Below are positions 2,265 through 58,087 of a DNA stretch of 64,000 nucleotides, piece by piece; the stretch's first letter is position 1, and each line of letters starts with the position of its first letter. Position numbers and translations under genes: made by a program. The notes under the pieces are model-generated. The model ran no database searches and had not been told where the DNA came from. It saw only the letters and a list, made by a program, of their open reading frames with translations. Source of the stretch: Paramacrobiotus metropolitanus (taxonomy: Eukaryota > Tardigrada > Eutardigrada > Parachela > Macrobiotidae); contig NW_026570221.1 in the NCBI RefSeq assembly GCF_019649055.1, positions 496,001 to 560,000 on the forward strand. Reading direction: 5' to 3'.

Positions 2265-2720
2265 GTCTTTTATTAAAAGCAGATTAGTTCTAGATCCTGA
2301 TTACGATGCATAAACCGATAAATGTGATATTATGATATATTGTGCTTCAAGGGTTTTGTGGTGGTCGTTGTTGATTCATGATAAATTTAGTTCCGTAAAA
2401 GCACTTTTCTGTCGGGCAGTGAATCCGATTCTGGCAGGCTGGCAGTACGAGTCATCGTGTCGTTCCCAACGGCTGTTTTCCAAAGCACAACAGTTAACTT
2501 TTTATCCATATCACACTTCTTTGAACATCTAACGAACTGACATGTTTTGCACCGCAAGCAAAAAGCAATTAAGCTCGATTCCGGCTTCGCTGCTGTTAAT
2601 GTATTGACTATGATCGTAATTAGTAGTATTACGGGGACTTCCTGGATGTAAAGTAATCTGGAACGATATAACAAACCACCGGGAGGTATGCGATACGCAC
2701 CCTTGATGAAGTTCCGCATT
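2265..2720. repeat. Duplicated segment, also at 61145-61620
   Basis: Similar to 61145-61620 in the same orientation, with shared blocks such as TTTTGTGCTTC/TTGTGCTTCAAGG, GAACTGRCATGTTTTGCA and ACTTCCTGGA. A 112-codon minus-strand frame (2725-2387) has a hydrophobic leader (VPVILLITIIVNTLTA) followed by a Cys-rich stretch (CLRCKTCQFVRCSKKC). It could therefore encode a small secreted peptide. The second copy has stops in this frame, so coding is doubtful. Confidence 0.5.
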
Positions 2721-2949
2721 CCCATTTTACGTCTTCACCCGGGCGCATTTCGATGCAGTGCACATTGTGGACCTGTTTGGAAAGCATCCGCACTGCGAGA
2801 CGCTAGCGTTAAACGTGGAGCGCATTGCAACGTGCACTTTCAGGGAAGCGACAGCGGAGAGAACTTAAAGAAGGCCAGGGAAGCGATGAATGTCCAGACC
2901 GCGCCACGGTAGACGTGACCACGACCACGAAGGCTCACCGAACACCGGC

Positions 2950-5081: not shown

Positions 5082-8069
5082 TCAAATGAAGAATTTGTCC
5101 CAATTAACATGAGAAGGGACCGTGCACAAAACACTCATAGCGTTACCACGCATAATCTCCAAACTTAAACGTTGAAACAAAAAACAAGTAGAGCGACTCT
5201 CACCTGTCCTTAAAAACAACTTCTTACCGATCTCCTTTAACGTTACAATGCCGGTCTCACACCAAGTCCCAAAAGTCTCACATGCAAAAGCGACAAAATT
5301 ACAGCGGTCAGTAAGCGACTTATATTTTCCAATCTTCTCCCGGCAAGCCAGTTCGGCGGCAGCGCCAGCACACTTTGAGGGCGCATCAATGTATGAATCC
5401 GCCATCGTGTCTCTGCAAGTAACGTCCCATACTAAGGGCTGTCCGCGGTACCACTTCCAACGCGTAGCTCCATCCGGACGTTTTCCGTTTTCGCGCAAAA
5501 AGTCAATGGGCTCCGGGTATGACTCAATGCCGGCATTACACAGCGCTCGCAATATGATATCGTTAATGCCGTTATGACGTTCCCTTCTCCCGATGCATTT
5601 CTTACACGCTAACCCATGGTATCCGTTTTCCGCAACCTCTTTACCACATCTCGCACACGAATGCTGCTCCACGATCTTAGCGCCAAGCCACAGGCCAACA
5701 GAAATGCGGAAAGTCTGATCGTCCAGGAAGTTGCCGAATACTTTCGCGGGAAGGGCGTTAAGCCAGGCCCCGGCGTACTTTGTGCTAACTGCTCTCAGAC
5801 GTGCTTCGGCTCTTTTATCGTCACCAACATTATTCCACAAAACGTCGACGTCCTTTTGTATTACCGCGTTATCCCATACGAATTGGTGAACACGTGCCAG
5901 ATCCAACGGCAATTCTTCACATTCAGACTCCAACTTCCAATTTTCGCACGCATCGTTGACCAACTGTTCGCTGTTGCCGTTGAAAATTCGAAATGTTAAC
6001 TGGCGAGTCGAATGCATGGAAGCCAAAAAGGCCGAAGGAGCCAATGCTTTCGCACGCCGCACACCCAAACCTCCTTTGGCAACAGGGAGCATTGCCTGTG
6101 TGTACACAAGTCCGTCCAACTTGGTATTAGTGATTTCTTCTAGAGCATCTTTAACGTGTCTATCGAAATCATCCAACAGCTCCGGCGCTTTCCAGCACGG
6201 ACTGCAACGCAGCGTATACATGAGCTTCGGAATGGACAGGCAGTTCCGCAAGAGGTAGAATCCGTGGTGGGCGTTAAGTAATTTCAAGCGCTCTGTAAAA
6301 ATTTTCAAAGAGGCAGTTTTCTGTTGCAGTGAGTGTTTCATAGCCTCATTAGTTAATGGTGCACCAAGAAACGTAACCGTTTCAGGCTGCAAAACAATCG
6401 CACCGGGAGCAATTGAGTGCAGCCTGTTCTTGGCCACCTCGCGTTCTGCAGCACTTCCACCAATTAGTAGCATCTCGCACTTCGCAGGGTTCAGTTGGAG
6501 TCCAGCGGCGCTGCTGGCGGCGATGATTGCTGTTAGATCGTCTGCCACTTCTTCCACTGTGCCTCCCAAAGCACCGTCATCCAGGAAAAACACCCTCAGT
6601 TTTGATGACAAACTAATGCAGAAAAGCAGAGGGACGAGGCAGAAAAGCAGTGGTCCTAACGGATCGCCTTGTTGGATCCCCGTGGCGGACGCTACGTTCT
6701 CGTCACTGCCGCTGCATGACAGCACGGACGACGCCCCATAAGCACTCAAAACGAACGGATAATACTCTGGAAAATGTTCTAGAACAGACTGTAACATAAC
6801 ATCACGACGGACAGTGTTAAAAGCATTTCGGAAGTCGATTTTAAACAGGACTCGTAGGCCAACAATCCCTTCGGAAATGAAACTTCTGACGGCGTGTACG
6901 GCTCCCTCTGCTCCCCCGCGTGTACCACATCCAACTTGGACGGGAGTAAACAGTTCCATCGCTTTCTTTCCACACCGCTTAGCAACAATCTTAGCTGCCA
7001 GTCTTCGTAGAACGTTACCCACAGCAATAGGCCGAACGCCGCCATCCTTCTTTGACAGGGCAGTCAGGTTTGCGCCAAACAGAGCAGGTCTTAGCTCCTC
7101 CGGTAACTTACCAGCCACGATAAAATTAACTAACTTGCAGAGTGCAATACGTAACGGAGACTCTACGGCATCTTTACAGCTCAGCATATCTTTGATGTGC
7201 TGGGGACGTAAGCCATCCAGACCTCCTGCAGAGCCGCTGGGAAAGCTAAACACGGCACTGATAACTTCAGCGGTTGTAACAGGAGTAAATGCTGGTATGT
7301 CGATGGCGCTAGGTGAGGGGAAAACAGTGTCGATAGGAGCATCGGGATGCTTTGAGTGCAGAACAGACAAAACTTGAGCGTCTATCTTCAAAACACTTTC
7401 TTCCGACGCCAAGCGAGCAACTGCTTTGTGAACAGAGCACTCGTTAATATACGATTCAACCATACGGCGTAGGTGCTCTGCATCATCTGTCGACTGGTTA
7501 CCGCCACGGGTACGGCTTGCGGGGGTGCTGCAAGGGGAGGACCTAACTCCGCTTTCAAAATCAAGTAGCTGACGTCGAAAACGTCCGGTTAGAGTTTCTT
7601 TCTTCTTCGACGAAACCTCTCCATCAGTAGCGAAACACTGTGAGGCGAACAGGAGCAGGGAAGTCCAGTTGACAATGGTGGGTTCCTTCACACATTGCTC
7701 AATAGCTCTAGCAAAGGTTTCTGCTGCTAGTGCACGGGCTGCTCTTGGGATTCCTTTGTTAATTTTCCCCGTGCTCCTCGCCTTTTTAAGTAAATTTATG
7801 ACGGTCTCGGAAGATGACTGTGAAGGGACGCCAGCAGATTGCGAGGAGGAGGGGCCGGTGGAGGCAATCGGGACATGCTCCAGCGTAGAGGACAAAGTTT
7901 TCGGGCAGGCATTTTTGTGGTTCCCCCATCCACGTAATTCCTTGCCACATCCCGAACACGTAAACGGCTGCGAGGGCATAAGATGGCTGCAAACGAAAGT
8001 ACAAGGGCAGAAACAAAGTTCTATCGAACAGAAGATGTCGACCCAGAACCGAGGAAACGACGTACCCAA
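5082..8069 (-). CDS. Non-LTR retrotransposon protein: zinc finger, reverse transcriptase, restriction-like endonuclease
   Basis: Uninterrupted frame of 995 codons. M31 (MPSQPFTCSGC) is the likelier start because the first 30 residues look like leader read-through. A C2HC finger (C38, C41, H51, C55) is followed by a Ser/Thr-rich linker. The reverse transcriptase spans about 275-570: SAGGLDGLRPQHIKDML at 280-296, motif A FKIDFRNAF at 409-417, QQGDPLGPLLF at 466-476, catalytic FFLDDG at 494-499 and LNPAKCEMLLIG at 526-537. A second finger (C805, C808, H818, C822) precedes a PD-(D/E)XK-like endonuclease signature: RPDG at 864-867 and WDVTC at 881-885. Such enzymes nick DNA and prime cDNA synthesis at the target. 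The intact frame suggests recent activity. A family name needs a phylogeny. Confidence 0.85.
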   Translation of the reverse strand: MGTSFPRFWVDIFCSIELCFCPCTFVCSHLMPSQPFTCSGCGKELRGWGNHKNACPKTLSSTLEHVPIASTGPSSSQSAGVPSQSSSETVINLLKKARSTGKINKGIPRAARALAAETFARAIEQCVKEPTIVNWTSLLLFASQCFATDGEVSSKKKETLTGRFRRQLLDFESGVRSSPCSTPASRTRGGNQSTDDAEHLRRMVESYINECSVHKAVARLASEESVLKIDAQVLSVLHSKHPDAPIDTVFPSPSAIDIPAFTPVTTAEVISAVFSFPSGSAGGLDGLRPQHIKDMLSCKDAVESPLRIALCKLVNFIVAGKLPEELRPALFGANLTALSKKDGGVRPIAVGNVLRRLAAKIVAKRCGKKAMELFTPVQVGCGTRGGAEGAVHAVRSFISEGIVGLRVLFKIDFRNAFNTVRRDVMLQSVLEHFPEYYPFVLSAYGASSVLSCSGSDENVASATGIQQGDPLGPLLFCLVPLLFCISLSSKLRVFFLDDGALGGTVEEVADDLTAIIAASSAAGLQLNPAKCEMLLIGGSAAEREVAKNRLHSIAPGAIVLQPETVTFLGAPLTNEAMKHSLQQKTASLKIFTERLKLLNAHHGFYLLRNCLSIPKLMYTLRCSPCWKAPELLDDFDRHVKDALEEITNTKLDGLVYTQAMLPVAKGGLGVRRAKALAPSAFLASMHSTRQLTFRIFNGNSEQLVNDACENWKLESECEELPLDLARVHQFVWDNAVIQKDVDVLWNNVGDDKRAEARLRAVSTKYAGAWLNALPAKVFGNFLDDQTFRISVGLWLGAKIVEQHSCARCGKEVAENGYHGLACKKCIGRRERHNGINDIILRALCNAGIESYPEPIDFLRENGKRPDGATRWKWYRGQPLVWDVTCRDTMADSYIDAPSKCAGAAAELACREKIGKYKSLTDRCNFVAFACETFGTWCETGIVTLKEIGKKLFLRTGESRSTCFLFQRLSLEIMRGNAMSVLCTVPSHVNWDKFFI

Positions 8070-9706: not shown

Positions 9707-11746
9707 ATGTATCTGTACGAGCTGCAAAAGGTTGAAAGATCTCTGTACGCCTGGAATGCCGTGGATGTGGAGATTGGCGGTCTCCTTCAATACGGCCACG
9801 TCATTGGCCTGGAAGAAACTGACGGAACAACGCCGCGTTTGATCGTCGACTTCGGCTGTCCGACCCAGGATGCAGTGCTAGTGGAAGAAGGGGCGATCTT
9901 CGACAGCTCTTTGCGCCCTACCTCCAAGAAACGCCCGCCCACGGGAGCGCAGGTGGAAGTGCTGATGTTCGAGAGCAAAAATGGTCCCTGGAAATGGTAT
10001 CCGGGCAAGATCTTGATTAAGTCCTTCCTCAACTTGGAAAAGACAGCGCTGGTGGAAGTGGAAATCAACGGCTATCGTCAGCGCGAACTTCTTCCCGACC
10101 AACAAATCCGCCGATCACTGTCGCAGAATAAACTACAGCGAAAGCGCCTGCAACCAGGACACTTCGTCATGCGGACGTGTCGTGTGCCTAACGGGTACTG
10201 GACGTTGGACCGGTCTGTAGCAGATGCATTGTGCCGTAAGGTGGAAAAAAGATTTCATCTGCACTCTACGCGCGTCCTTTAGCCAGGAGATGCAATACGT
10301 GCGGCGGTGCGATGAGCCTCCAATGGATAATGCGGATGTGGTAAGGTCCCCTACGAGACCAGTTTCACATCCCGAAATCGTTGTTGTTTTGGTAGTGCAT
10401 GGGGTCGTCTCTTATCGAACGTTAGTTATACTGTATTCTGCGTAAACCGGCAAGAAAAAACCGGAAACTGTGTTTCACAAAAAAATATAGAAAAATATTT
10501 TTACAAAATTTTTTTCTTAAATTTGTGTTGTTTGCTCTACATAATTATCCGTAAGCTCTAACTAAAACTGTGTTCTATTCTTTTTTATTTTAGGCAAAAC
10601 TTTTCGAAAGGCAGAAAGGGAAATGCGTACGTTCTCATTACGACGGGGAGTCGGAGAGCGAACGAAAGCGCAAAAAGCGGCAAACTACAGGTAATTGCGG
10701 TTTAGCACTGCCAGTCGAAATCTTGAAAGAGATCTTCCTCTCACTGCACACCGTCGATCAACAGCGCTGCAGACGCACTTGTCAACTGTGGGATGCCGTG
10801 CTGACATCGGGAGACGAGTGGAGAAAATTCGTGCGAGTACAGATAGAGGCAGAGGACGATTATGCCATTCATCCATACATTGGGTATAACTGCCTTTTCA
10901 AGAACATCACGCCCGCTACGCGAACCATTTGCCAGCAAGATCCGGAATGGGGTCTAGACTGCGAGGACCGCGACGATTGGATTAAGGTTAACGAAGCCAT
11001 GAACTTGATTAAAAAAATCTTGGACGATGGTGGCATACGCATCGACCGACTTATCCTGCACAAACGCGAGATGTTGACTGACTTAACCGAACTGCCGCTG
11101 AAAACGCTTTTCGCCGAGACGGCAGCACTGTTTTCCACACTGGCATCCTGCTGTGACTGTTTAATTTTGAAGCAACACCGCCTGATTTATCAGTGTACGA
11201 ATGATAACTTCTGGGAATTCCGTATTCCATTGGCTGTCATGAATCCCGGCAGTGTAGAGGAAGCGCTAATCTGGGATGTGTGTGAGAAGCATCTGTGCTG
11301 TGTTGGACCAAAAATAGAGCTGTACGAAAGGCATCGGTGTCATCCGCCGGTCGACAGGCAGCGTATGGCCCACTGCCTAACGAATCTGATTAACAGCCGA
11401 GAGAGGGCGTCGACAGTGAAGAAGGTGCTACATGCACTCGTACTGTACATAGACCTCCTCTACAGTGCTCTCCGCAAACCCGCGCATGAGTTCCACTATT
11501 TTGCTCTTTCTAATGGCATTCCGGTTAGCTGAAATGATTTTGCAGATTCTGAAGGATTGCCAAACCTGCGATCCGCGTTCCTCTGCTCATTACCGGAATT
11601 CCAAATGGATTCTGTATAATATGGCTAACGTGGACGTCAACAAGCTGAACAAATTGTGTCTGCTTGGCCTGTGGCGCGAAATGGCGTTCTGGTCGGAAGC
11701 ACCTGCCGATGAGGGCGTCAGCGACAGCTCAGATTCCGACGACTAG
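9707..11746 (+). pseudogene. Copy A: Agenet-like/F-box family gene with one frameshift
   Basis: Three-exon gene nearly identical to copy C. Exon 1 is 9707-10340 (donor GTAAGG), exon 2 10594-11424 and exon 3 11546-11746 (stop 11744). Exon 1 is 634 nt, one more than in C. An extra base near 10279 (GTCCTTTAGCC against GTCCTCAGCC) turns the frame into a stop after residue 191, just past the KH-like segment and before the F-box. Exons 2 and 3 stay fully open (277 and 66 codons), with LPVEILKEIFLSL and the acidic tail SDSSDSDD. The lesion is therefore recent or an assembly error. If real, only the N-terminal domain would be made. Confidence 0.85.
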
Positions 11747-13715: not shown

Positions 13716-16561
13716 TTAAGGTGCTTCAACCCGTTTCCGAACGTGGTACCACAAGACGTGCAGGCATAACGTGTTCAGCTTGCGGACGTCCACGCTGGCC
13801 ATAGCGTCCAGCGTCCACGTGACCCCACGGTAGTGCGTTGATGGGCGCGGGTCAAAGGACTGAAATGTCTCGAGAACCTACGGGTAACCAGAAGAAATTA
13901 AATTATGTTAATAAAAAACAAGTAATCGTAGTACTTGAAAGAACTAGTAGTAAAAAAACTCACGGTGTGTCAGGAACAGAAAATAAAATAAGCTTAAATA
14001 GCGCTCTTGGTTTATCATTAAGCGTTTTTGTACATTTGTTACTTCCCAAAAGCATCAAATTGAAAGATTTGACATCCGTCGGAAAAAGTTCAAAGGGTTT
14101 ACTAAATAAACACAAACTGAAACTGGTCAGTTTCACTAAACGTTTTAAGTACTGTAGCCGCCCGCACAAGTTGCCCCACAGAGTGAGGTATACGGATATT
14201 TGGCCTCACATTGCTCGCTGTTCAGCGCAGTGTGTGCAGGGAGAAGGCAGCGGCCGGATCTGCCAATGGAGCAACTTGTGCGGGCGGCTACAGTACACTG
14301 GCAAATCTTTCGTCAGCTTATTAATATTGATTTCCTTATTTATATTAGTATTAATCAGTTCTTTAAAGTTACTATTCTGTCAGTATTCTATGCTGTTATT
14401 TTTCTGTTAATAATATTATACTCTGTTATTATTCTCGTACGTACATTTCTGACTAACAAATCCTTTGCAAGCCAGCTAGTGCAAGTAGAACTGGCTACAC
14501 ACTGCGCGATTCGCTCCATATCCAGCGGTGGTCCGTCGCAGTACAGAATCTTCTCAAACAGGTCCCAGATCTGCGCTTCGTCAGAATTCCCCAGCATGAA
14601 GACCGCAAACGGCACACGAAATTCCAGTACTAGAACAGATCTATTTTTGTATTGCAAGGAATAATCTTTCCAGATTAAACGGTCACAGCCTGTCGCCAGC
14701 CGAGAATGCAACGAGGCCATCGCGGCAAACACTTCTTTCAACGCCAACGATTGCTCGATCGTCAGTGAGCGCTGGTGCACAATCACACGCTCTTAACGGA
14801 TGCCGGCGTTGTCCAAAACCCGTTTAATCAAGTTCAGGGCTTCATCAACCTCACTCAAGCCCTCCCTATCGCCGCTGTAAACCTGTGTATCGTGGATGCA
14901 GATCGTTCGCACTGTGGGAGTAATATGCTTGAACAGGCAGCTATATACCGCATAATTCCCGTTCCATTTCTTCACCGACCGCGGTGCAAAGGCTCGATCG
15001 ATAAAGGGAGCGCGAACATCTTTGCACAGCTCCGCCGATGTGAGAAGGGTTTCCCAGAGTTGACAGGTGCGTCGGCATCGTTGCCGGTCAATGGTGTCCA
15101 GAGACAAAAAGACCTCTTTCAAAATTTCAAAGGGAACGCCAAAGCGCATCCCACCTCATTGTATCGCGCTTTCCGCTTTTGTTCGACCGCTTCCTCCTCC
15201 TCACCGCGTGAATTAACGGAGTGCACTAAGACGGAACACACTAGGTCCCTTCGTGCTCCATGGAAAAATTTCATCTAAGATGGAAGAGTGGAAAAATGTC
15301 AGTACTTTACCGATGCTCAGTCTCCAGTTCTCAAAAATAAGATCCATATGCTACAGGAGACCGCTGTCAACCAGACTGTCAATAATAATAAAATCTGACC
15401 ATGGGTCAATCAACAAACTGTTCCAACATAGCAACCGATTTTGAAACTCGATATGGTCGTCGGCCATGCAATTCTAAGTGAAAATGGCGCTTGAAAATCA
15501 CCTTGGGCGTTAGGAGCATTAGAGACAGAGCTAGAAACAGGTTTTTCCATTCTGCACAGTTTTTAAGAGGATTAACTAAGCTGGTACCCACTTTGCTTTC
15601 AAAACATTTAAGGCTTAAGCTGTGAACAAATTTCTGTCAATAAATTTGGAATTAGCGCTATTGATTGCCTAGAAGAACTGTACAGCGCGTTTTTCGGTCT
15701 AATTCCCAATAACCCGAAGCGGTTTTTGGAACTACTAGTCAGGAACTTATTCGCATTCGAAATTTCAAAAAAATTTCTATATCAAAAATTGGTTGGAGAC
15801 GAGCACGGATTGCTTGTATTAAATACGTAGCCAGATCTGCCTTTAAAAAATTACATATGGTCAATAAGAAAAAAACCACATATGGTCGATACGTCCTCCA
15901 TATATTAGCCATTGCCAATAACCATGCTGACTTTGCGGCAAACAACTTACGATTGTGGCTGAGTGGACGGGAGTCCTTTCGCGTAGTTGCAGGTAGTGCA
16001 TCTTCCGGCTGAGAATGCACGAAAACCGCAAGCGGAAGGTGCGCTCAATGTTGCGGACCAACTGCGCGGCCAAGGAACGATTCAGAGTCCAGTAGCCACT
16101 GGGCACACTGCACGTCCGCATAATGAAATGCCCCGGTTGAAGACGCTTTTCTTCGAGTTGCTTTGATGAGGAGATGCAACGTATCTGTCGGCTAGGAAGC
16201 AGTTCGCTAGTACGCTGTCCCGCCACGGCCACCTCTACCAGCGCGTAGTCCAACAAATCCACAAAGGAATCAATGAGGACTCTCCCGGGATACCACTTCC
16301 AGGGATGATCGAACAGCAGCACCTCCACAGGAGCCCCCGCTCGTGGTCTCCGGGATGGTTCTGTGGAACAGTCGAAAACCTTTCCGCATTCTACCGGCAC
16401 TGCCTGATGTGTCGGACACCCGAAATCCACGAGCAGACGCCGGGAGTTCCTTTAATTTCCTCCAGACCGGTGACATGGCCGTGCTGCAACATTCCGTTTA
16501 TCTCCACATCCACAGCGTCCCATCCATACACGGACCGCGTACTGTCTTCGTAGAGATGCAT
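13716..16561 (-). pseudogene. Copy B: decayed Agenet-like/F-box family gene
   Basis: Exon 1 is 15951-16561 (MHLYEDSTRSVYGWDAVDVE, donor GTAAGT). Exon 2 is about 15225 down to 14490, and exon 3 is 13716-13877 (DPRPSTHYRG, MASVDVRKLN). Lesions: a 1-bp deletion in exon 1 near 16440, a 1-bp deletion just before the F-box near 15140, and an in-frame TAA at 14793-14795 inside the conserved GIR-x-ER motif. The 3' end of exon 2 is lost. Intron 1 has grown to about 725 bp, against 78-253 bp in most copies, and intron 2 holds a MITE. Exon 3 is still open but lacks the acidic tail. The gene cannot make a full product. Confidence 0.85.
14152..14293. mobile_element. MITE family 2, short copy (CTGTAGCCGC inverted ends, TA target)
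   Basis: 142 bp with near-perfect inverted ends, starting CTGTAGCCGCCCGCACAAGT and ending with its complement, flanked by TA on both sides. No ORF. It shares its first ten bases with the 412-bp element at 28433-28844. TA duplications fit a Tc1/mariner-type mobiliser (inference). It lies in intron 2 of pseudogene B. Confidence 0.8.
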
Positions 16562-18323: not shown

Positions 18324-20362
18324 ATGTATCTGTACGAGCTGCAAAAAGTTAAGAGATCTCTGTACGCCTGGAATGCCGTGGATGTGGAGATTGGCGGTCT
18401 CCTTCAATACGGCCACGTCATTGGCCTGGAAGAAACTGACGGAACAACGCCGCGTTTGATCGTCGACTTGGGCTGTCCGACCCAGGATGCAGTGCTAGTG
18501 AAAGAAGGGGCGATCTTCGACAGCTCTTTGCGCCCTACCTCCAAGAAACGCCCGCCCACGGGAGAGCAGGTGGAAGTGCTGATATTCGAGCACAAGAATG
18601 GTCCCTGGAAATGGTATCCGGGCAAGATCTTGATTAAGTCCTTCCTCAACTTGGAAAAGACAGCGCTGATAGAAGTGGAAATCAATGGCTATCGTCAGCG
18701 CGAACTGCTTCCCGAAAAACAGATCCGACGACCGCTTTCGCTGGATAAACAACAACAAAAGCGTCTGCAACCAGGACACTTCGTCTTGCGGACGTGTCGT
18801 GTGCCGAACGGTTACTGGACGTTGGACCGGTTTGTAGCAGATGCATTGTGCCGTAAGGTAGAAAAGAAATTTCATCTTCGCTTTACGCGCGTCCTCAGCC
18901 AGGAGCTGCACTACGTGCGGCGGTGCAATGAGCCTCCAATGGATGATGCGGATGTGGTAAGGTTCCCTACGAAACCGGTTTGACCTCCCAATATCATTGT
19001 TGTTTTGGTACTGCGTGGGGTCGTTTCTTGTCGAACGTTAGTTATACTGTATTTTGCGTGAACCGGCAAGAAACAACCGGAAACTGTGTTTTACAGAAAA
19101 ATATAGAATAAAATTTTTGCAAAATGTTTTTCTTGAATTTGTGTTGTTTGCTCTACGTAATTATGCGTAAGCTCTAACTAAAACTTTGTTCAATTCTTTT
19201 TTATTTTAGACGAAACTTTTCGAAAGCCAGAATGGGAAATGTGTACGTTCTCCTAACGAAAAGTCGTGTCTGAGCGAACGAAAGCGGAAAAAGCGCCAAA
19301 CTGCAGGGGATTGCGGTTTAGCATTGCCAGTCGAGATCCTGAAGGAGATCTTCCTGTCACTGCACACCGTCGGTCAACAGCGCTGCCGACGCACCTGTCA
19401 ACTGTGGGATGCCGTGCTGACATCGGGAGACGAGTGGAGAACATTCGTGCGCATACAGATAGAGGCAGAGGACGATTATGCCATTCATCCATACATTGGG
19501 TATAATTGCCTCTTCAAGCACATCACGCCCGGTACGCGAACAATCTGCCTGCAAGATCCGGAATGTGGTCTTGACTACGAGGACCGCGAAGATTGGATTA
19601 AGATCAACGAAGCTGTGAACTTGATTAGAAAAGTCCTGGACGATGGAGGCATACGCATCGACCGATTTATCCTGCACCAACGCGAGATGTTAATTGACTT
19701 ATCCGAACTGCCGCTGAAAATGTTTTTCGCCGAGACAGCCGCGCTGTATTCCACACTGGCATCCTGCTGTGACCGTTTAATATTGAAGCAACACCGCCTG
19801 ATTTATCAGTGCATAAATGATAATTCCTGGGAATTCCGTATTCCAACGGCTGCCATGAATCCAGGCAGTGTGGACGAAGCGCAAATTTGGGATGTGTTTG
19901 AGAAGCATCTGTGCTGTGTTGGACCGAAGAGAGAGCTGTACGAAAGGCATCGGTGTCATCCGCCGGTCGACAGGCAGCGTTTGACCCACTGCCTGGCGAA
20001 TTTGATTAACAGCCGAGAGAGGGCGTCGATTGTGAAGAAGGTACCTCATGTACTGTACATATACCACGGCTACAGTACTCTCCGAGAAACTGTGCATGAG
20101 TTCTGCAATTCAGCTCTTTCTAATGGCATTCCGATTATCCGAAATGATTTTACAGATTCTGAAGGATTACCAAACTTGCGATCCGCGTTCCTCCGCTTCT
20201 TACCGGAATTCGAAGTGGATTTTGTATAATATGGCGAACATGGACGTCGGAAAGCTGAACAAACTGTGCCTGCTTGCCTTGTGGCGCGAAATGGCGTTCT
20301 GGTCTGATTCATCCTCGGATGAGGAAGAAGGCAACAGCGACAGCTCAGATTCCGACAACTAG
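18324..20362 (+). CDS. Copy C: intact Agenet-like/F-box protein (556 aa)
   Basis: Exons 18324-18956, 19210-20040 and 20156-20362, all phase 0 with GTAAGG/TTTTAG and GTACCT/ACAG junctions. Residues 18-66 (VDVEIGG...PRLIVDLG) and 82-137 (QVEVLIFE, WKWYPGKILI, ALIEVEINGY, ELLPEKQIR) look like two Tudor/Agenet barrels. Residues 150-192 (GHFVLRTCRVPNGYWTL, CRKVEKKFHLRF) look like a KH0-type segment. KRKKRQ (236-241) could be a nuclear signal. The F-box is 249-290 (LPVEILKEIFLSLHTV, RRTCQLWDAVL). A conserved ~250-aa C-terminal part follows (CLFKHITPGTRTIC, DDGGIRIDR, LASCCDRLI), then an acidic tail (SDSSSDEEEGNSDSSDSDN). The F-box implies Skp1 binding and substrate delivery for ubiquitination. The Agenet-like part would recognise the substrate, perhaps a methylated protein or an RNP (inference). 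Confidence 0.85.
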
Positions 20363-29335: not shown

Positions 29336-31857
29336 TCAGGAGTTTCTGGGCTCGTTGTCGGATTCGGATCCACTGCTTAGCTCGAAGCTAGAATCGCTGG
29401 ATTCATCGCCGGGCTCACTGCTTGACTCGTTGTTAGGATCGCTGAACACACTGCTAGAATCGCTTGATTCGCCGGATTCCGGAGCTTGCGCGCCCGCGTC
29501 GACGCATGCTTGAGGCAAGTTCCGTAAGTAGTGCGATAAAGCATACAGGCAGAATCGGTTTAGCTTGCCCACATCCACGTCACCCAAATTGTACAAGTGC
29601 CACTGATGTCCGAGATGAAGCATCGACGGGCGTGGATCACATTCTTGGTAGTCCCGGATAATCTGCGAAATTACTCACTTGGTTAAGCACATTGGAAAGC
29701 TTCAGGCAACAGCCATAGCGTCGCGCGATTTGAACTTTCGGGGACTGTTGACTCAATGCAGTAAGTTCTAGGCAAGTCAGTGGCTCTGTATAACCATGTA
29801 GCATGATGACCGTGTGACTCTACCGCGTTCAAAGTTCAAATTGCTACAGTGGTACAGCCTACAGTCATGTCAACATACCTCTTTCACTTTCTTGGCCCTC
29901 GACTCGCTGTCAACCAGACTAGTCAGTTTCTGGCCGATTACCTCATTATCCAATAGTGGCTCCTCCGAACAGAGATTTTTCTCAAAGAGGTCGACAATCT
30001 GCAAGTCATCAACGTGTCCCTTGGTGGTGCCAGCAGCAGGAATGCGGAACTCCATGCCGACTGCGTCTCGCTCTGGAAAACCCACATTGACCTTAACAAC
30101 ATATTCTTTGAAGATCACACGATCACAGCCCGACGCCAGCGTAGACTGGAGCGCGCTGATTTCGGTGGAAAACACGCCCAAATTCCATTGATCAAATGCT
30201 GACTGTGCGATATGAAGAACTCGCTGGTTCATGATGAGGCGCTCAATACGGATGCCGGCGTCGTCCAAGAGCTTCTTAATCAGATCCGCCGCTTCATCGG
30301 CAACTAAAGCTTTCCTGTTCCGACGAGTAAGGTAAAGCGGATCGGGATCGCGAATGCAGATGGTGCGGGTGGCGGTTGTGATATGCTTAAAGAGGCAGGC
30401 GTACATAGAATAATTCCAGTCCGAGTCCACGGGCTGTGAACAGCTGCGCTCCTCCCGAAATATGCGAATATCTTTGCACAGTTCCGTCAAAGTCAGAAGT
30501 GTCTCCCACAACCGACAGGTGCGGCGGCAGCGCTGTCGGTCGATGGTGTCCAGTGAATGGAAGATCTCCTTCAGCACTTCATTCAGCAATAATTCCCATC
30601 CCATTTCAGCGACACTCAGAGGCTTTTTCCGCTTTGGCTCAGCGTCCACGTCTTCGTTCTTCTCGAGTAATTTACGGTGGAATGAAGGAAAATTCCTTTT
30701 TTCTTCGAAACTTATTGCCTATGGTGGAAGACAAAATGAATGGAGAACGCTATGCTAATAAACATAAAGTTGGACTTCCAATATTTGACATTTCCTGAAA
30801 TTTTTCAAACGGTAAATCTTCAGGCGATGTTGATAAACGTTTTCTTTTTTTCAATTGTTGGAAATTTTTGAAAAAATGGTATTATATTACGAGGTTTTAA
30901 TAAAAAGCCTTTTGGGGCTTTATTTAATATTTAGAGCCCTGCGCGAGTGCCCAGCCTCGACTCGGCTCGCGAGCCGAATTGGCGAACTATAATCTGTTTT
31001 GGCAGTTTTTTCACGAGCCGAGCCGAGCCAAGTTGTCGAGCGTCGAGCAACGAGTGAGCCGCATTCAGGGGGCGCGAGCGGGCTGAGCAACACATTTTGT
31101 GTTGGCCGTGAAAAAATGCTATCGTCATTTGAAAACGTAAATATCTTTTGTTTATCATGCTAGTATTCTAAGGTAGCTTTGCGGTAGACTATGACGCCCA
31201 TTCTCTAAACTCAACGCGCCTGCTCTATCAACGACTTACTATGTCAAAATCCCCCAATGGCCGCTCATCAGATCGCCGGTGATAGTGCATTGTCTGGCTG
31301 AGAATCTTCACAAACCGCAGCTCGAGCTCCTTTTCAATCCGCCGGAGTAGCAACGCCGCCGCCGACGGCTGCATAGTCCAGTAACCGTTAGGCACGCTGC
31401 ACGTCTGCATGACGAAATGACCGGCTGTAAGGAGCCCTGGCCTGACTGCTTCTCCTGAGGAATCCCGAATTTGTCGGTAGGGAATCAGTTCGCGACGACA
31501 CTGTCCGTCCAACGTTATCTCCACAAGCGCAACATTGATAACCTGCTTTACACGACTAATCAGCATAGTCGCAGGATACCACTTCCAGGCACCATTTTTG
31601 GCTTCCCTCAGCAGTACCTCCACGTTGTCTCCCTCGCTGGCGCTGCGATGTCGTTCGAAAGAGCAATCCCAGATCTTCCCATAGGAAACCTGTACCGATT
31701 GTTGTGCCGGACACCCGAAATCGATGATCAGACGCGGCGCACTGGTGGCGTTCTCTTCCAGGCCGATAACGTAGCCGTGCTGCAGCAGACCGTCCCTCTC
31801 CACATCCACCGCGTTCCATGCGTGGACCGAGCGCTCGGAATTTTCGTACACGTGCAT
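29336..31857 (-). CDS. Copy D: intact Agenet-like/F-box protein (594 aa)
   Basis: Exon 1 is 31240-31857 (206 codons, donor GTAAGT), exon 2 29879-30718 (280 codons, acceptor CATAG, donor GTATGT) and exon 3 29336-29662 (acceptor CGCAG), all phase 0. Exon 1 carries both Agenet-like modules (AWNAVDVERDGLLQHGYVIG; VEVLLRE, WKWYPATMLI, ALVEITLDGQCRRELIPYRQ) and the KH-like GHFVMQTCSVPNGYWTM. Exon 2 has EPKRKK, the F-box (NEVLKEIFHSLDTIDRQRCR, RTCRLWETLL) and CLFKHITTATRTICIRD. Exon 3 has DYQECDPRPS and the longest tail in the window, about 60 residues of Ser/Asp/Glu. Intron 1 is enlarged (521 bp) by a GC-rich insertion. A putative SCF adaptor. Confidence 0.85.
30935..31125. repeat. GC-rich GAGCCGAGCC repeat inside intron 1 of copy D
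   Basis: Contains CGACTCGGCTCGCGAGCCG and CACGAGCCGAGCCGAGCC, partly self-complementary, in an otherwise AT-rich intron. It explains why this intron is several times longer than in E, F and G. Probably a small inserted element. Confidence 0.5.
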
Positions 31858-34112: not shown

Positions 34113-36414
34113 TTACTCCTCGCCGCCATCCGACTCGGAATCTGTGGTATTGCTGGATTCACTGCTGGACTCGTCGGAATGTACAGCTTGCGCGGCGTCA
34201 TTCCCGGATGCCGGCCACCAGTCCTGTATGCCGCGCCATAAGGCGTACAGGCACAACCGGTTGAGCTGGCTCACATCCACGCTGGCTACATTGTACAGCG
34301 TCCACGTGTGGTTTCGGTAATGCGCCGACGAACGAGGATCGCAAGACTGGAAGTTCCGTAGGATCTGTAGAATTACCCAGCAAAATGAACAATTTACTAC
34401 TCCAGGAAAGAAGTTAAATTATCATAAATAAAATCATACTGGTTTTAAAATCCAGCAAAAAAACGTTTGGAAAACCAGACTGGACCATTCGCAGTGGTAC
34501 AATTTGCGAGAAACCTTGATTCTCGATTATCCTCAATGACGAATGTTCTTATTAATCCTAGAAACGCTAAAATGTGAAACATTTAAATCAATCCGTAATG
34601 GATTCTTCACGCCATGTCACACAACAAATCCTTAGTTATTAAAATATGTATTTTTAAAAAAATCCTCAATTTAAGTGCGTATACAGTCTGGACAATTGCT
34701 CAGTCACGTTATGCGAGCTGATCGGTAGTGGGTGCTAGGCTCGCTGCTGCTCGATGCAACTCGCATAGCGTCCGTGGATAGTTGGCCAAATATAACAGAA
34801 GAAAAAACGGATAATCGCTGAGAAAATCATAGGAACTTAAGGTACCTCTTTCACTTTCTTGGCGTTCCTCTTGCAGTCGATCCGATGGGCCAAGTACTGG
34901 GCAATGCGCCGCACATCCAACAACTCCCCTTCGTAGAGCAGATGCTGCTCTAACACATCCACAATGCGTTCCTCATCGACATGTCCCGTGGTGAACACAG
35001 CAAGGGAAATCCGGAAATCCATCAAAGCCGCGTGTTTCTTGTCCAGCAGTGTGAGAACTTGATCTTTCCAAATTAGCCGATCACAGCACGCCACCAGCTT
35101 GGACAGGTGCTCGGAAATCTCAGCGCACAGTGAGTTGAGTTTCCATTTACCATCGTACGTCAACGCTGTTATGCGGATGGCTCGCTGGTACATGACGAGT
35201 CGGTCCAGGTGCAGGCCGCCCCTGAGCAAGACCTTACTGATTAAGCCCAGCGTACCACGCAGGCGGAGACCAGGAGTTTCGGCATCGCGAATGCTGACGG
35301 TGCGGGTGGCGGGCGTGATGAGCTTAAGGATGCAGGCGTACATGGGGTAGTTGCAGTCCCACTTCTGCCGCAGCGGAGGGGTGGGTGGCTCCCGCGATAC
35401 ACGCACCTCGAGACCCATCTCCCCCGTGGTCAGGATGACCTCCCACAGTTGGCAAGTGCGCCGACAACGCTGTCGATCGATGGTGTCCAGTGACTGGAAG
35501 ATTTCCTGTAGCAGTTCGATAGGCAACTTGAAGCTGCCTGCATCGAAAAAAACCACAGGCAACGTGGAACCTTCATCACCCACGTGCAACAGCTTTCTCC
35601 GTTTAGGCTTCGACTCAACCTCGGGCTCTGCACATGAGTCGTTGTTTTTCCGGAGCGCGTCGCGGTAAAAGTCTCGTTCAAAACAAATAGCCTAGAATTA
35701 AGAGTCAGTAAGAGAATGCGAAACCTGGTTATAGTGCTGCTTCTCAGACAAAAGGTTCAACTGTGGGTCTGCCACAAACAGCCATCAACGACAACTCACA
35801 ATATGTTCATCCCACCAAGAATGCTTGTTGAGGGTCCGCAGATAGCGCATCTCCTTATCAAGAACCTTGACAAACCGCAACTCAAAAGACTGCTCAAATT
35901 CTCGCAGCAGGGAAGCGGCTACAGACGGCTGCAGATTCGAGTACCCTTCTGGCACATTGCACGCTCCCATGACAAAATGGTCCGCTGCAATGAGTCCTGG
36001 CCGGGCAGTTTTTCCCACCACATCGCGAATCTGTCGGCAGGGAATCACTTCGCGACGACACTGCCCGTCCATCACCACCTCCACCAGCGCCATATCTTCC
36101 AGACGGCCGAAGGCCAACCCAGGAATAAGCATTTTTGCGGGGTGCCACTTCCAAGGGCGATGCTGGCCGTCGTGCAACAGCACCTCTACAGCGGCGCCTT
36201 CGCGCGCCCGACTGTGTCGAATGGTGGAGCTTTTCCAGATCTTTCCGTATTCCACCAGCACCGCCTGCTGTGTCGGGCAACCGAAATCGACAATTAAACG
36301 CGGCGGAGTCTGCTCCAAGCCGATAACGTGGCCGTGCTGCACCTGGCCATCAATCTCGACATCCACGCTGTTCCAGATGTACAGAAAGCGTTCACCATCT
36401 TCGTACAGGTGCAT
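34113..36414 (-). CDS. Copy E: intact Agenet-like/F-box protein (570 aa)
   Basis: Exon 1 is 35800-36414 (205 codons, donor GTGAGT), exon 2 34846-35691 (282 codons, acceptor TTCTAG, donor GTACCT) and exon 3 34113-34364 (acceptor CTACAG, stop TAA), all phase 0. N-terminal modules: NSVDVEIDGQVQHGHVIGLE, then VEVLLHD, WKWHPAKMLI, ALVEVVMDGQCRREVIPCRQ, then the KH-like DHFVMGACNVPEGYSNL. Exon 2 has KPKRRK, an F-box (LPIELLQEIFQSLDTIDRQR, RTCQLWEVIL) and ITPATRTVSIRD. Exon 3 reads NFQSCDPRSSAHYRN, NVASVDVSQLNRLC and an acidic tail (SDESSSESSNTTDSESDGGEE). Head-to-head with copy F across about 890 bp. A putative SCF adaptor. Confidence 0.85.
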
Positions 36415-46525: not shown

Positions 46526-46849
46526 ATGCCTTCGTATATAAGCAAGATTTCGAAAGATCGTTTGTATTTTTCGGGCTATTATGACAGCTTTGTAGTGGAT
46601 ATCGTGCAGGGTGACTCAGTGTCACGAGGGTTTGTTGTTTATGCTGTCGAGAACGGCCTTGTCATTGACTTCCACCATGAAGGCGAATCCACCGCGGTGA
46701 TACCGTTTTCGCAGATTCGCACTCTACCAGCTAAGCGGAGCGCCGCATTTTGCTACTCTTTCGAAGTGCCTGCCGCCAACGCCGAAGTGGAAGTTCTTAT
46801 TCGTCAGGCTGGGTGAGTGTTACTGTACTTGCTGTCCATAAAAATTGTT

Positions 46850-47160: not shown

Positions 47161-48017
47161 CGTAAATTAAGTTTTAAATTCATTAAAAGTTAAAACTGTT
47201 CTTCCACCGTTTTAATTAATTTTAAAATTTTTAAAATTCAGATTGAAATTTGAAAAAATGCTAGGTAATGTGGCCGACAGGGTTGCCGGAAGTTGCAGTA
47301 TGGAATGATTTTTTTAAATCTTGCACATCAACAAACATATATGCTGCCGTTTTGTTTTCACCGACAATCGTTTGGCTTCCGATAAAAAAAGTTTTTGTTG
47401 ATCTTCTGCAAACAGACTTATAGACGGTACATTCATATTCGAGAAGCTAACAACAACGAACTGTTAACGTTTATCACTCAACGCTTTGTATGATTACCGG
47501 TGCTACCAAAAATGGCACAACTTAAACAAATTCAACATTGCCGGTTTCTTTTTAGAGGTAAACCGTTGGCGTGGACCAAAGCCACCTTTCTAGAATGTGT
47601 GCCTGACGAAAGTACAAAATTGCGTCAGTATCCAGCTGTCGAGCGGTTTGCCCTCGTGCAAGTGTCTTCCAGCGCGTCGCTCTCGTTAGCTGCCGTGAGA
47701 TGGTGTTGCCCATCATCATTCGCCGGGGACGTGCGAATCCGACGGCAACGACACTGGCACACGGTCACAGAGACAACGTTTCGCAAAATCACAGTACCTT
47801 TCCGACGCTGTCCAAAAGATTCCTGTCCGTTTCCGGACATGCCGATTGCTTGGGCCCTTGACGTAATCGATACGATGAAATCTATTTGGCTGCGCAGCAC
47901 AAACACCCTAATTGTGTCGGCGGACCGGATGGGCATTACCGTACTGTGCCGAAAGGTTACGCGGCGACTGGCTATAAAGTTCCATCGACTGGTATTCCAC
48001 CGCTATGAGGATCGACT

Positions 48018-50241
48018 GGCAGGGGATAAAAGGTGGCAGTGGCACGTGCCACTGGCAACTGCCACCGGCAGTGGCAGTTGCCACTACGCGTTCTGGCAAG
48101 CGATAAAACGTGGCAACTGTTAAAACCTCAAAAATCAAAATACTGAAGGAAGGCACCACCTTTCTCATTATTAACAGCTCAAAAACCCTTAAACTCTTGA
48201 AGGCGTGCATGTGCATGGTCCACGTCAAGTATAATGAACCCTGATTACAAAAAAATATTCTTAGTGCGACTTAGTACGAGCTACGAGGGATACCGAACCG
48301 AGTGCGTACCGATTGTTCGCTCAGGGTTTGTTCAGAAAAGATAAAAAACGAAAATAAACTGTATAACAAATTTTGCACACCGACCACATCTGTACGTAGT
48401 ATCTACAGCACAGATACATGAAAAATTATAACCAGACGCGCTCTTTAAGTTAAGAATTAAGCGCAGGCCATTTTTACCTTTTCGTCTTATAATCTGTTGG
48501 GCGTAATTGTAGCCTTTGAAGACTTTAAGCCGGTGTTGGGCACATCAATGCGGCCATCGTCATATGCGCCCCATTCGTCAGTAGACAAAGGCGCCTGCAA
48601 TTCGGCTTGCACTGTGCAGTGACTGAGTGTGCACGTTGTGGCATAGCAGTCTGACTCGTACAGACAAAACATTTTTCTAGCCTTTAAGGGATTTTGCCCG
48701 GTACATAGCACCAAGTTCGTGTACATCCAGGGGAATTTTCGCTGGTGCGCGCTCCCAAACACTTCTTTGCATTTCTTTATGGTATTTTGTAGCCAGAAGA
48801 ATTGTATACCTAGGTGAGAAAACCGTTTGCACGCGCAACATCCGGTTGCGAAGTTATGAGGGTATCAAAATTCCAAAAAGTTTAAATGCATTCAGGTGTA
48901 CCAAAAGTCTCATTATGGACCGATCCCTTTCGAACTTTGTACGTAAATGCACATAACTATGAAGATCGTTTTGACACGGATCCATTGTTCTAGCATGTTT
49001 TTCAAATTTTAAAATTCATTTTAAAATTTGAAAAAAATCGTAGAAGTCTGGATCCGTGTCAAAACGATCTTCATGGTTATGTGCATTTACGCGCAAAATT
49101 TGAAAGGGATCGGTCCATAATGAGACTTTTGGTACACCTGAATGCATTTAAACTTTTTGGAATTTTGATACCCTCATAACTCCGCAACCGGATGTTGCGC
49201 GCGAAAACGGATTTCACGCCTATGTACACCAATCATTTGGCTACACAATGTCAAAAAGCAGCACCCAAAAAAGTGTTTGAAAGCGCGCGAAAGAGATTAT
49301 TCCCGTCAATGTACACGATTTTAGCGCTATGTACCGGGCCAAATCCCTTAAGACTTAATAATTTTTTTAGGTTTCTTGCGCTTTTTGCGTTCCTTAGAAT
49401 TCTTAGGGTTATTAGGTTTTCATAGAATTCATGATTTGTTTATTTTTAGAAAGTCTAAGAAATCCAAGAAACTAAGAAATTTAAAATTAAGAAGACCATA
49501 ACATAACGATAAAAATGAACAAGACCCGAATTTTGATGGTCTGTCTCTGACTTTTAGTAGTCAGAGTCAGACTCATCCCTACGGCCGCGGGCCTGTAGGC
49601 TGTAGCCCAACAGCTTTAAGCACTTTTGTCAACATCAGTTTTCTGCATTAGTTACAACTCGCAACTTATAAAGGGAAATCCTGAACGATACACAACGAAT
49701 TTTTGTATTTTCGTTTTTATTATTACAAATACCGGACCTTCGTCAAACACGCTTGTTTTACGCCGCGCTTATCATGAGTGCCAGAATAGTTAGTTTAGCT
49801 TTTCAGGATGTGTTATGTGTTATCCAAAATTAAACGGTTTCTGGAGATCGCCAGCTCTTAGCTGAATGCAGGAATGGAACGCTTTTACAATACCGTCGCA
49901 TTACCGCGCTTCAATCGTGAGCGGCAACGATTCTCAGTGTAATCTGTGACAGTTTCGTCTGCTAAACAGCGTTGCAGCAATCATTTAATACTGCATTGGA
50001 AGGCGCAGACACAAGGCTCAGCTGGGGTCTGCGTCCATAGACAAGTTTTATAGAGTCCATCTGTGAAAATACAAAAATGCTCTCCCTAGAACTTATCGTT
50101 AGATGGCAAAATTGTCTCAAGCTGATTCTGAATTTTTAACAGTTGCCACGTTTTATCGCTTGCCAGAACGCGTAGTGGCAACTGCCACTGCCGGTGGCAG
50201 TTGCCAGTGGCAGGTGCCACTGCCACCTTTTATCCCCTGCC
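48018..50241. mobile_element. 2.2-kb Mutator-like element, 9-bp target duplication GGATCGACT
   Basis: GGATCGACT flanks it at 48009-48017 and 50242-50250. About 105-bp inverted ends start GGCAGGGGATAAAAGGTGGC, rich in TGCCACTGGCA-type motifs. Same family as 41104-44877. The interior carries a large foldback (48679-49353) and a fragment of the ACTCTG-type element (about 49366-49615: AGGTTTCTT spacer, AGTAGTCAGAGTCAGACTC, GGGCC). No transposase seen. It interrupts the last exon of gene H. Confidence 0.85.
48679..49353. repeat. Large foldback: inverted arms of about 335 bp
   Basis: The arms meet at about 49016 (CAAATTTTAAAAT/ATTTTAAAATTTG). The inner ~170 bp are nearly perfect, for example ATCGTTTTGACACGGATCC against GGATCCGTGTCAAAACGAT and CGCAACATCCGGTTGC at the arm middles. 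The outer parts are more diverged. No coding. Transcripts through it would form a long hairpin. Confidence 0.8.
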
Positions 50242-50335
50242 GGATCGACTAATGCATGAACTTATAAAAAGTGTACCGAAATGTCGCAGTGAGCGGCTGG
50301 CACAACGAATTTATTACGAAGGTTTGCGGGCCTAA

Positions 50336-56097: not shown

Positions 56098-58087
56098 ATG
56101 CACATTTACAAGAAAACCAAACGCTCGGTTTACGCCTGGAACGCTGTTAATGTGGAAGTGGATGGTCAGCTGCTGCATGGCCGTGTCATTGGCCTGGAAG
56201 AGAAACCAGCAAACGACAGCACCCCACCGCGCCTGGTCGTTGATTTCGGATGCCCGACACAGGAAGCGGTGCTGGTGGATGACGGAAAGATCTGGGATTG
56301 TTCCATTCGCCGATCCACTCGTGTGAACGACGGAGACAAAGTGGAAGTGCTGCTGCACGAGGGTCCAGAGCGCCCCTGGAAATGGCATCCCGGAACAATG
56401 GTAATTCCAGAATTCTTGATGGTACCTGATGTGGCGCTGGTGCAGGTGATGATGGACGGGCAGAGTCGTCGCGAACTGCTTCCCTGGATACAGATTCGCG
56501 ATCCGCTTCAGCGAGATCTCCTTCCAGTGGGCCACTTCGTCATACAGAAATGCCGTGTGCCTAACGGCTACTGGACCCTGCATCGGGATGCATCGGAGCG
56601 GCTGATACGACAAATTGAGGAAAAGTTCCGTCTACGGTTTTTCAAGGTTCTTAGCCAGGAAATGCACTATGTGTGTCGACGCCAGAAAAAGCCACTGACG
56701 GATGAAAATCTAGTAAGTCGTTTGCTTCTGAATGCAGCCTTCTATTGTAATGTCTGAAGAATCACGATTTTGTTTAGAAGTAGAGTTATCCTTGTGCATA
56801 GGTGATCGAGTTCGAGAGAGGCAAAGAGAACCCTTTGCCTTCGCCTCCTCGCAAATTGTGCGAAAAATTCGAAGATCCGGATAGTGAACTAAAGCGGAGA
56901 AAGTCGTACCGTGTCGGTGAAAGCCGTTTACCGGTGCCTTTGGAATTGCTGAAGGAAGTCTTCAACTCACTGGACACCGTCGACCGGCAACGCTGCCGCC
57001 GCACTTGTCAGCTCTGGGAAGCGATGCTCACTTCGCCGGATGTGTGCCAAGAACTTCGTTTGCCGCTCGGGACACTTGCCCATAAACGAAGAGATCCAGT
57101 GAAGTACGATTCTAATTACTTCACTTACGTCTGCATCTGCCAGCACATCACGCCCCTCACCCGCACGATCTGCATCTACGGTAGCGAAACGAATAGCCGT
57201 GAGCCGTGGCACATGGGTGGTGCCCGCGAAGCAATGGACCTCATTACGAATATCCTGGGCGCTGACAACAACCGCATCGATCGTTTGATCGTGCAGCTGA
57301 AAGCCATAACGATTTTAAAGCCGATTTATCTGGCGAAGTTGAGCGCACTCTCTGCCGCGATATCCGCGTTCATGTCCAACCTGATGTCTTGCTGCAAGCG
57401 TGTGATTTGGAAGGATTGTTTCGTGACATACGGGGCAGATGATCTTTTCTTTAAGACTCGTATTCCGTTTGCCGGGTTCTCGCACGGAGACGTCGGTGTG
57501 GTCGACCTTGTGAACATGATCGAGAAGGAAATCCGCTGCGAGCAGGCGCCGTGGGATGTGCAGCTCTTCGCCCAGCAGCTGGCCATTTGGATCGCCGATA
57601 AAGAGAGCACCTGGGATGTGATAGAGGTACAACTATTAACACTGCGACATCGTCGTGACTTTTCGGAATGGAAAACTTGTAATGCTTAATCCGGATTCCA
57701 AATGGAGATAGAAACGTGAAACGATGTGGGAAGAGCGTCATTGCGGATCGTTCTTCTTCCGGGCGCCCATTATTTTCATTGTCAAGGAGTCTGACAAATG
57801 CGTGACGCGTTACTTTGTTTCCTGATGCACATTTTTGTGTAATATGCTGAAAACTTTTGCAGATCTTGGAGGACTTCCAGTCATGTGATCCGCGTCCATC
57901 GGCGCATTACCGCAGTCAGCACTGGACGCTGCACAACGTGGCCAGCGTGGACGCGGGCAAACTGAACCGGTTCTGTCTGTTCGCTTTGTGGCGGTACATG
58001 CATGGATAGAATCCAGCACTGGCAGATTACCACAACGCACACGATGAGCCATCCAGCGAAGCCAGCATTCACGAGTTGGAGGAGTAA
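56098..58087 (+). CDS. Copy G: Agenet-like/F-box protein with a truncated tail (528 aa)
   Basis: Exon 1 is 56098-56712 (donor GTAAGT), exon 2 56802-57626 (acceptor GCATAG, donor GTACAA) and exon 3 57863-58009 (acceptor TTGCAG), all phase 0. Modules: NAVNVEVDGQLLHGRVIGLE; VEVLLHE, WKWHPGTMVI, ALVQVMMDGQSRRELLPWIQ; KH-like GHFVIQKCRVPNGYWTL. F-box: LPVPLELLKEVFNSLDTVDR, RTCQLWEAML. Exon 3 reads DFQSCDPRPSAHYRS and LFALWRYMHG, then TAG (58007). The same frame stays open after the TAG to TAA at 58085-58087 and still spells an acidic tail (EPSSEASIHELEE). The tail was therefore lost by one nonsense change or is reached by read-through. Otherwise intact. Confidence 0.85.

Follow-up and report, generated by a model that had tools for sequence, protein, structure and literature searches.

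The DNA analysed here (the window) is a 64,000-nucleotide stretch, C1:496001-560000, from a 169.8-Mb genome of 533 contigs, to which all genome-wide counts refer. Window positions 18324-20362 on the plus strand hold a three-exon gene, designated copy C, which encodes 556 residues and has GT/AG borders and phase 0 at all junctions. The coordinates and exons originally given for this gene are correct, with open frames and phase-0 splice borders throughout. Its features are as follows.

18324..18956, plus strand: exon 1; 211 codons in an open frame, donor GTAAGG, phase 0; tandem Tudor/Agenet and KH0-like segment
18372..18521, plus strand: Tudor/Agenet 1, approximately residues 17-66; A1 profile aligned to FXR1, FXR2 and the genome's own FMRP; strands present in the model; marginal alone
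18564..18737, plus strand: Tudor/Agenet 2, approximately residues 81-138; identified by the Tudor 2-only profile against own FMRP; pLDDT ~68-79
18771..18956, plus strand: KH0-like segment, approximately residues 150-211; assigned by position, by its first strand aligned to FMRP KH0 and by its inclusion in the A1b match to L122 and L128; not significant alone
18957..19209, plus strand: intron 1, with its donor directly after the KH0-like segment
19210..20040, plus strand: exon 2; F-box and C-terminal region; acceptor AG, donor GT
19321..19449, plus strand: F-box, residues 38-80 of exon 2; PF12937 E 2.2e-4, 21.3 bits, below cut-off
20156..20362, plus strand: exon 3; 68 residues, acidic tail; acceptor AG, phase 0

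A sister copy, copy A, has a readable exon 3 too, near 11.55 kb. Altogether, seven exon-1/exon-2 pairs occur within the window on both strands, four with frames open up to the splice sites and three broken. The six pairs other than copy C are listed below.

9707..11616, plus strand: sister copy A, 90% in exon 1; broken by a stop and a frame change late in exon 1
14475..16561, minus strand: family member, broken by a frame change in exon 1 and a stop in exon 2
29891..31857, minus strand: family member, both exons open as far as the splice sites
34858..36414, minus strand: family member, both exons open as far as the splice sites; also a match of the cousin L122
37310..38826, plus strand: family member, broken; usual ATG absent, frame change in exon 2
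56098..57611, plus strand: family member, both exons open as far as the splice sites

The family had been predicted to be amplified, and this was borne out by the seven window pairs, by at least 158 exon-1 matches genome-wide (copy C exon-1 query; 150 of 818 candidates scored) and by 95 exon-1/exon-2 pairs. The accompanying claim that every family member has the same exon-1 modules was too strong, given the three broken copies in the window (9707, 16561-14475 and 37310). The copy C exon-2 query gave at least 120 matches (119 of 811 candidates scored), and for 95 of the 120 listed exon-2 matches one of the 150 listed exon-1 matches is located no more than 4 kb upstream on the same strand. An exon-2 match was also present on the wrong side of 13 of the 150 listed exon-1 matches, as is expected from tandem neighbours. 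Contig C1 carries 31 of the listed exon-1 matches between 0.39 and 0.97 Mb. A stray piece of the exon-2 C-terminal region, for which no neighbouring exon 1 was found, lies at window position ~2716-2856 (plus strand).

The three broken copies, together with a transposon-like insert within the neighbouring gene H, could indicate that most copies are non-functional and belong to a decaying, repeat-like family. We consider this very improbable. The dN/dS ratio was 0.26-0.63 in all 23 exon-1 pairs of at least 60% identity and 0.34 in the one exon-2 pair, and judged by these ratios the copies are under purifying selection. In addition, the majority of listed exon-1/exon-2 matches have no internal stop, and the donor GTAAG is present in 28 of the 47 copy-C-class exon-1 sequences ending in V or V-S/R, where only the AAG is informative, the V codon itself supplying the GT.

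Searches of Pfam and PDB with the single sequence of copy C exon 1 returned nothing useful. A profile (A1) was constructed from 60 copies; 68 frames had been found and 64 listed, with L052, L053, L054 and L064 omitted as partial. When this profile was compared with 177,635 distinct PDB sequences, FXR1 ranked first (E 0.011), ARID4A second (E 0.029) and FXR2 third (E 0.084), and the FXR1 and FXR2 chains aligned to it in register over both Tudors. The profile scored 27.2 bits against the genome's own FMRP, over FMRP 9-138, and 30.0 bits against the first 220 residues of that protein, where 2000 shuffles reached at most 6.9. The bulk of this score is contributed by Tudor 2, which alone gave 17.5 bits, a score equalled by 0 of 5000 shuffles; on its own, Tudor 1 was marginal (62 of 5000 shuffles as good), and the two together gave 29.3 bits (0 of 5000). 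None of the 60 copy-C-class members approached the Pfam Tudor/Agenet cut-offs, the best matches being to Tudor_FRX1 (E 0.0063, one member) and Agenet (E 0.011, four members). The two-module pattern originally described (W, G-K/A, LVEV, REL-P, QIR) holds in relaxed form for the second module, in 57 of 60 copies, but not for the first, which has a pattern of its own, V-D-V...G..QHG.V...LIVDF...Q..V, in 58 of 60.

An AlphaFold2 model of exon 1, generated with the seven window sequences, had a mean pLDDT of 51, with the second Tudor at ~68-79 and an unreliable KH0 part. Foldseek searches with this low-confidence model placed FMRP N-terminal structures at ranks 1-7 (best E 1e-4). In VIA-align, FMRP ranked first (Z 9.8; 4.1 A over 125 residues) and the first five ranks all went to FMRP and FXR1 (Z from 9.8 to 8.6); a plant Agenet pair, at rank 6 (Z 8.5), was tied with the FXR1 at rank 5. 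The fold alignment covers residues 14-153 only, with the KH0 part outside it. Neither a fold without two Tudor barrels nor a better match elsewhere, the outcomes named beforehand as speaking against an FMRP-like head, was obtained: profile, reciprocal and fold searches all placed FMRP/FXR first. These results support the assignment of the predicted head of copy C as a tandem Tudor/Agenet of the FXR type.

A reverse search was carried out with residues 1-200 of the genome's own FMRP, which gave 88 matches at E up to 10, among them cousins of the family from 8.9e-7 and copy-C-class genes from 0.012. Twenty-six FMRP-like matches were hand-picked from the 88, and an F-box exon was present downstream on the same strand in 22 of them (11 of 12 and 11 of 14, in neighbourhoods of ~2 kb), three of the 22 being of the copy C class (L133, L143 and L147). 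The ~2-kb stretches of L125, L139, L141 and L144 yielded no F-box; the genome-wide listing of F-box-like matches has one at C76:161189, at the edge of L144's stretch. The clearest cousin class is that of L122. Its nine-sequence profile reached 64 bits with own FMRP (residues 5-194) and, among the 177,635 PDB sequences, matched six chains with E no higher than 10, every one FMRP/FXR (6e-13 to 1.7e-10), scores that carry a selection bias because the cousins were picked by their similarity to FMRP. Three full-length FMRP chains aligned to this profile through KH0, with the best match extending to chain position 180. As a single query, L122 matched FMRP at 1.6e-7 (residues 8-186), copy-C-class genes at ~1e-9 to 1e-6 and, within the window, the copy at 36010-36381 at 1.4e-6. 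At least 150 L122 matches were found genome-wide (150 of 654 candidates scored), and 91 of the 149 listed (86 places; the FMRP match excluded) are on contigs with no listed copy C exon-1 match.

The cousin class also bears on whether the N-terminus might be a tandem Tudor/Agenet from another Royal-family line, such as plant-type Agenet, SGF29 or ARID4A, that merely resembles FMRP. Plant Agenet pairs and SGF29 (Z 7.4) follow closely in the VIA-align ranking, Agenet is matched by four of the 60 members against one for Tudor_FRX1, and ARID4A stands second in the PDB search; against this, the cousin-class profile finds FMRP/FXR chains only, the family is recovered by the reverse search with own FMRP, and L122 matches both. 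We therefore give this alternative little credence and retain the FXR-type assignment.

Three further observations were made during these searches. An intronless FMRP orthologue is unusual for an FMRP gene; own FMRP (L001, G000:C5, minus strand) occupies one 630-codon open frame, at least 550 codons of it from the FMRP start, without introns there. By eye, the locus L141 (G000:C107:303850-306100) resembles Tudor 2 and KH0 of FXR proteins, and it may be another FXR gene; its segment gave no match to the cousin KH0 profile (534 of 5000 shuffles as good). Single-exon Agenet-like frames (NYGNTVLV..WWLGYVQDIDGD type and relatives) were seen at L004, L005/L086, L071, L072, L073, L074, L080, L081 and L083, with no F-box in the short stretches around them. 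This class is possibly a sister radiation and is excluded from the claim of fusion.

The third segment of exon 1 had been likened, by its placement, to the KH0 fold that follows the Agenet pair in FMRP/FXR proteins. A conserved third segment is indeed present (F153 in 55, C158 in 53, P161 in 56 and W165 in 56 of 60 copies), with a regular expression for it matching 29 of the 60 only, and the cousin class aligns to FMRP through KH0; it is the direct tests on copy C's own class that fail. The copy-C-class KH0 profile alone scored -3.7 bits against FMRP (2139 of 5000 shuffles as good), and it was not significant for four of five single cousin KH0 segments (shuffles as good: L122, 204 of 5000; L134, 515 of 2000; L138, 149 of 2000; L144, 65 of 2000; L135, 4 of 2000). 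The KH_9 (FMRP KH0) Pfam model, searched across the genome, identified the own FMRP gene only. Built from nine cousins, on the other hand, the KH0-only profile reached 9.3 bits with own FMRP, a score equalled by 0 of 5000 shuffles; built from the first five, it gave a weak 2.9 bits (15 of 5000). Profile-profile alignment of the KH0 segments of the copy C class and the cousins was colinear over 62 columns (P 0.012). The match of the copy-C-class profile to L122 and L128 spans profile positions 9-205 and so takes in the KH0-like segment. A phase-0 intron follows the KH0 segment in the copy C class and in six of eight cousins picked by eye, the six in which the donor reads GTRAG; the exceptions are L144 and L124. 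A KH0 is thus supported, as a predicted domain, in the cousin class, and since the direct segment tests fail in copy C's class, we infer its KH0 through the chain of cousins.

Exon 2 had been read as an F-box, and PF00646 was matched by 33 of 33 exon-2 sequences at E <= 0.1 (best 4.3e-9); this set (A3) comprises 33 of 39 references, the six excluded being four fragments from the window plus L078 and L098. Copy C alone falls below the Pfam cut-off of 24.3 bits for PF12937. The F-box of L122's gene scores 34.3 bits, above the cut-off of 24.3, and other cousin F-boxes exceed their curated cut-offs (L078, 28.4 bits; L084, 22.3 bits; L098, 21.7 bits). The exon-2 profile ranked FBXO31 first in PDB (E 0.044). 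Genome-wide, the F-box-like model gave at least 149 matches, all above cut-off (150 of 997 candidates scored), and 10 of the best 20 have an FMRP-like module within ~3 kb upstream when compared by eye. Among diverged copies, the exon-2 profile was matched in 12 of 15 downstream stretches and not in those of L094, L099 and L100; the F-box of L099 is located in L078, and L100 (the C54 gene) has an intron-split F-box that scores 20.5 bits with its two exon pieces joined, exactly the PF00646 cut-off. An F-box is, on these comparisons, fused to a predicted FMRP-type module in several diverged classes.

The region following the F-box is common to the classes as well, with exon-2 profile positions 15-175 matched in L122, 4-211 in L129 and 12-174 in L132. 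The simplest history for a region shared in this way would be a single founding fusion whose descendants duplicated and diverged. The model of this region had a mean pLDDT of 53 and no convincing fold was obtained (best Foldseek E 0.12). A relationship to a part of acetyl-CoA carboxylase was rejected as unconvincing, the best Z being 6.8 only, as was a barnavirus polyprotein, the sole match with E < 0.001 in the viral structure library, which had a TM of 0.20 and is not credible.

Profile comparison and, weakly, the modelled fold show the Tudor pair, the F-box and their pairing in one gene. LRR, WD40, kelch and FTH/FBA are known client modules of F-box proteins, and the copy C family, an F-box family by sequence, appears to have a new F-box architecture. 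FMRP, FXR1 and FXR2 share with it two Tudor/Agenet domains followed by KH0, in the same order (the KH0 being that of the cousin class), and phenylalanine at the position of FMRP F32. They differ in that here an F-box follows, the Y96 position is non-aromatic, there are many copies, and neither KH1 nor KH2 was found when exons 1 and 2 were scanned with Pfam, which returned no KH family; on this ground members of the copy C family are not FXR proteins. Taken together, copy C is in our judgement probably a member of a lineage-expanded F-box family carrying an FMRP/FXR N-terminal module (Tudor 1, Tudor 2 and KH0) without KH1 or KH2. In the literature searched, some of it available in excerpt, we found no family or expansion in which an F-box is fused to FMRP or to a Tudor head.

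F-box proteins bring clients to Skp1-Cul1, and four Skp1-domain matches are present in this genome. The F-box of the copy C family would dock on Skp1/Cul1, while the Tudor-Tudor-KH0 head would capture clients, possibly aided by the C-terminal region, in the way that the FMRP head binds RG/RGG-rich or methylated RNP proteins; alternatively, the head may pair with FMRP/FXR proteins. Captured clients would then be ubiquitylated. According to the available text of PMC5430443, the FMRP tandem Agenet binds methyl-lysine and interacts with DDX5, FUS, EWSR1 and LSM14A, potentially via RGG/RG motifs and with sensitivity to F32L and/or Y96L. In PDB profile alignments of the 60-copy and cousin profiles, phenylalanine occupies the F32 position in 57 of 60 copy-C-class sequences and nine of nine cousins (L in copy C itself), and the Y96 position is V in 51 of 60 (V or I overall) and i in the cousin profile. 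With F32 kept and Y96 replaced by V/I, the predicted head probably still binds a partner, though not exactly as FMRP does. The likeliest reading is a repertoire of putative SCF receptors with an FMRP-type client-binding head. Clusters containing broken copies suggest that the set of clients is changing, and foreign or selfish RNPs are our guess as an example.

The FMRP N-terminus takes part in dimerisation, and the head of these proteins is homologous to it. The head might thus mainly hetero-oligomerise with the animal's own FMRP/FXR and control the levels or granules of that family, rather than act on foreign or RGG clients. In the part of PMC5688124 available, mammalian SCF-Fbxo4 binds FMRP, FXR1 and FXR2 and has FXR1 as its substrate, so that the SCF system is linked to FXR proteins there too; the difference is that FXR1 is the substrate in that case, whereas in the copy C family the adaptor itself carries a fused FXR-type module. 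One FMRP gene, perhaps with L141 as a second, would hardly need so many diverging adaptors, and we regard control of FMRP as unlikely to be the main role, preferring a repertoire of client receptors.

UHRF1 combines a tandem Tudor with a RING E3 ligase. It resembles the copy C family in that a tandem Tudor reader is joined to the ubiquitin system, and differs in acting on chromatin as a RING ligase instead of as an F-box adaptor, with a Tudor of another subfamily.

The expanded F-box proteins of nematodes have FTH/FBA-type C-termini, and F-box proteins serve as antidotes in the toxin-antidote elements of C. tropicalis. Such elements are described in the portion available of PMC12680543. The F-box families of Caenorhabditis (39 to 1426 genes; PMC8665587, seen in extract) are, like the present family, tandem-duplicated, species-specific expansions of F-box adaptors, and one nematode F-box class carries a transposase HTH according to the accessible sections of PMC12062965. 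Those families differ from copy C's in their FTH/FBA or transposase-HTH parts, and Tudor/Agenet is unmentioned in the same sections of PMC12062965. The resemblance, and the clusters with broken copies, raise the prospect of an arms race or of selfish elements, in which the F-box adaptors would be antidotes or immune receptors and the head a decoy or pathogen-binding surface. With dN/dS below 1 in 23 of 23 pairs, which still permits selection at single sites, we think this rather doubtful, if not to be set aside lightly.

A more ambitious form of the receptor reading is that a single fusion of the RNP-binding head of FMRP to an F-box gave rise in this animal to a very large superfamily of SCF receptors. 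With their Tudor-Tudor-KH0 head these would take hold of RNP proteins, be they methylated or RGG-rich, the animal's own or foreign, and have them destroyed, perhaps in the service of intracellular defence. We put this forward tentatively, as a real possibility for which the odds are somewhat against. If the proteins work as their parts suggest, they would be a new kind of disposal (ubiquitin-ligase) adaptor. An RNA-binding-protein head on an F-box, in well over 100 copies, would link SCF ligases directly to RNP granules, and the family would supply natural variants from which the targets of the FMRP N-terminal domain could be learnt. The family would further be a case of F-box adaptors elaborated, in an animal lineage, around a head other than those of nematodes and plants.

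The window contains a further Agenet-like gene, gene H, with the following features.

46526..46813, plus strand: first exon of gene H, with the H-class Tudor 1; PF18336 14.4 bits, below cut-off 25.9
47494..48008, plus strand: later exon of gene H, cut by an insert; related to the L069 and L003 frames; direct repeat and terminal inverted repeats

Gene H had been noted for keeping IPFSQIR, close to the end of Agenet-1 in FMRP. Gene H itself stays below the Tudor_FRX1 cut-off, and it is its relatives L002 and L003 that pass, the Tudor of L003 with 27.3 bits; the later exons of the H class gave no profile match to FMRP or to copy C's class. The transposon-like insert in gene H extends over window positions 48009-50250. 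It has 116-base terminal inverted repeats (48018-48133 and 50126-50241) that are 97% complementary, 9-base direct repeats at its flanks (48009-48017 and 50242-50250), and a second palindrome inside with 241-base arms (48775-49258). Elsewhere in the window, an open frame of 999 residues around position 5459 (minus strand) includes a zinc-finger-like stretch and is, by eye, probably a retroelement.
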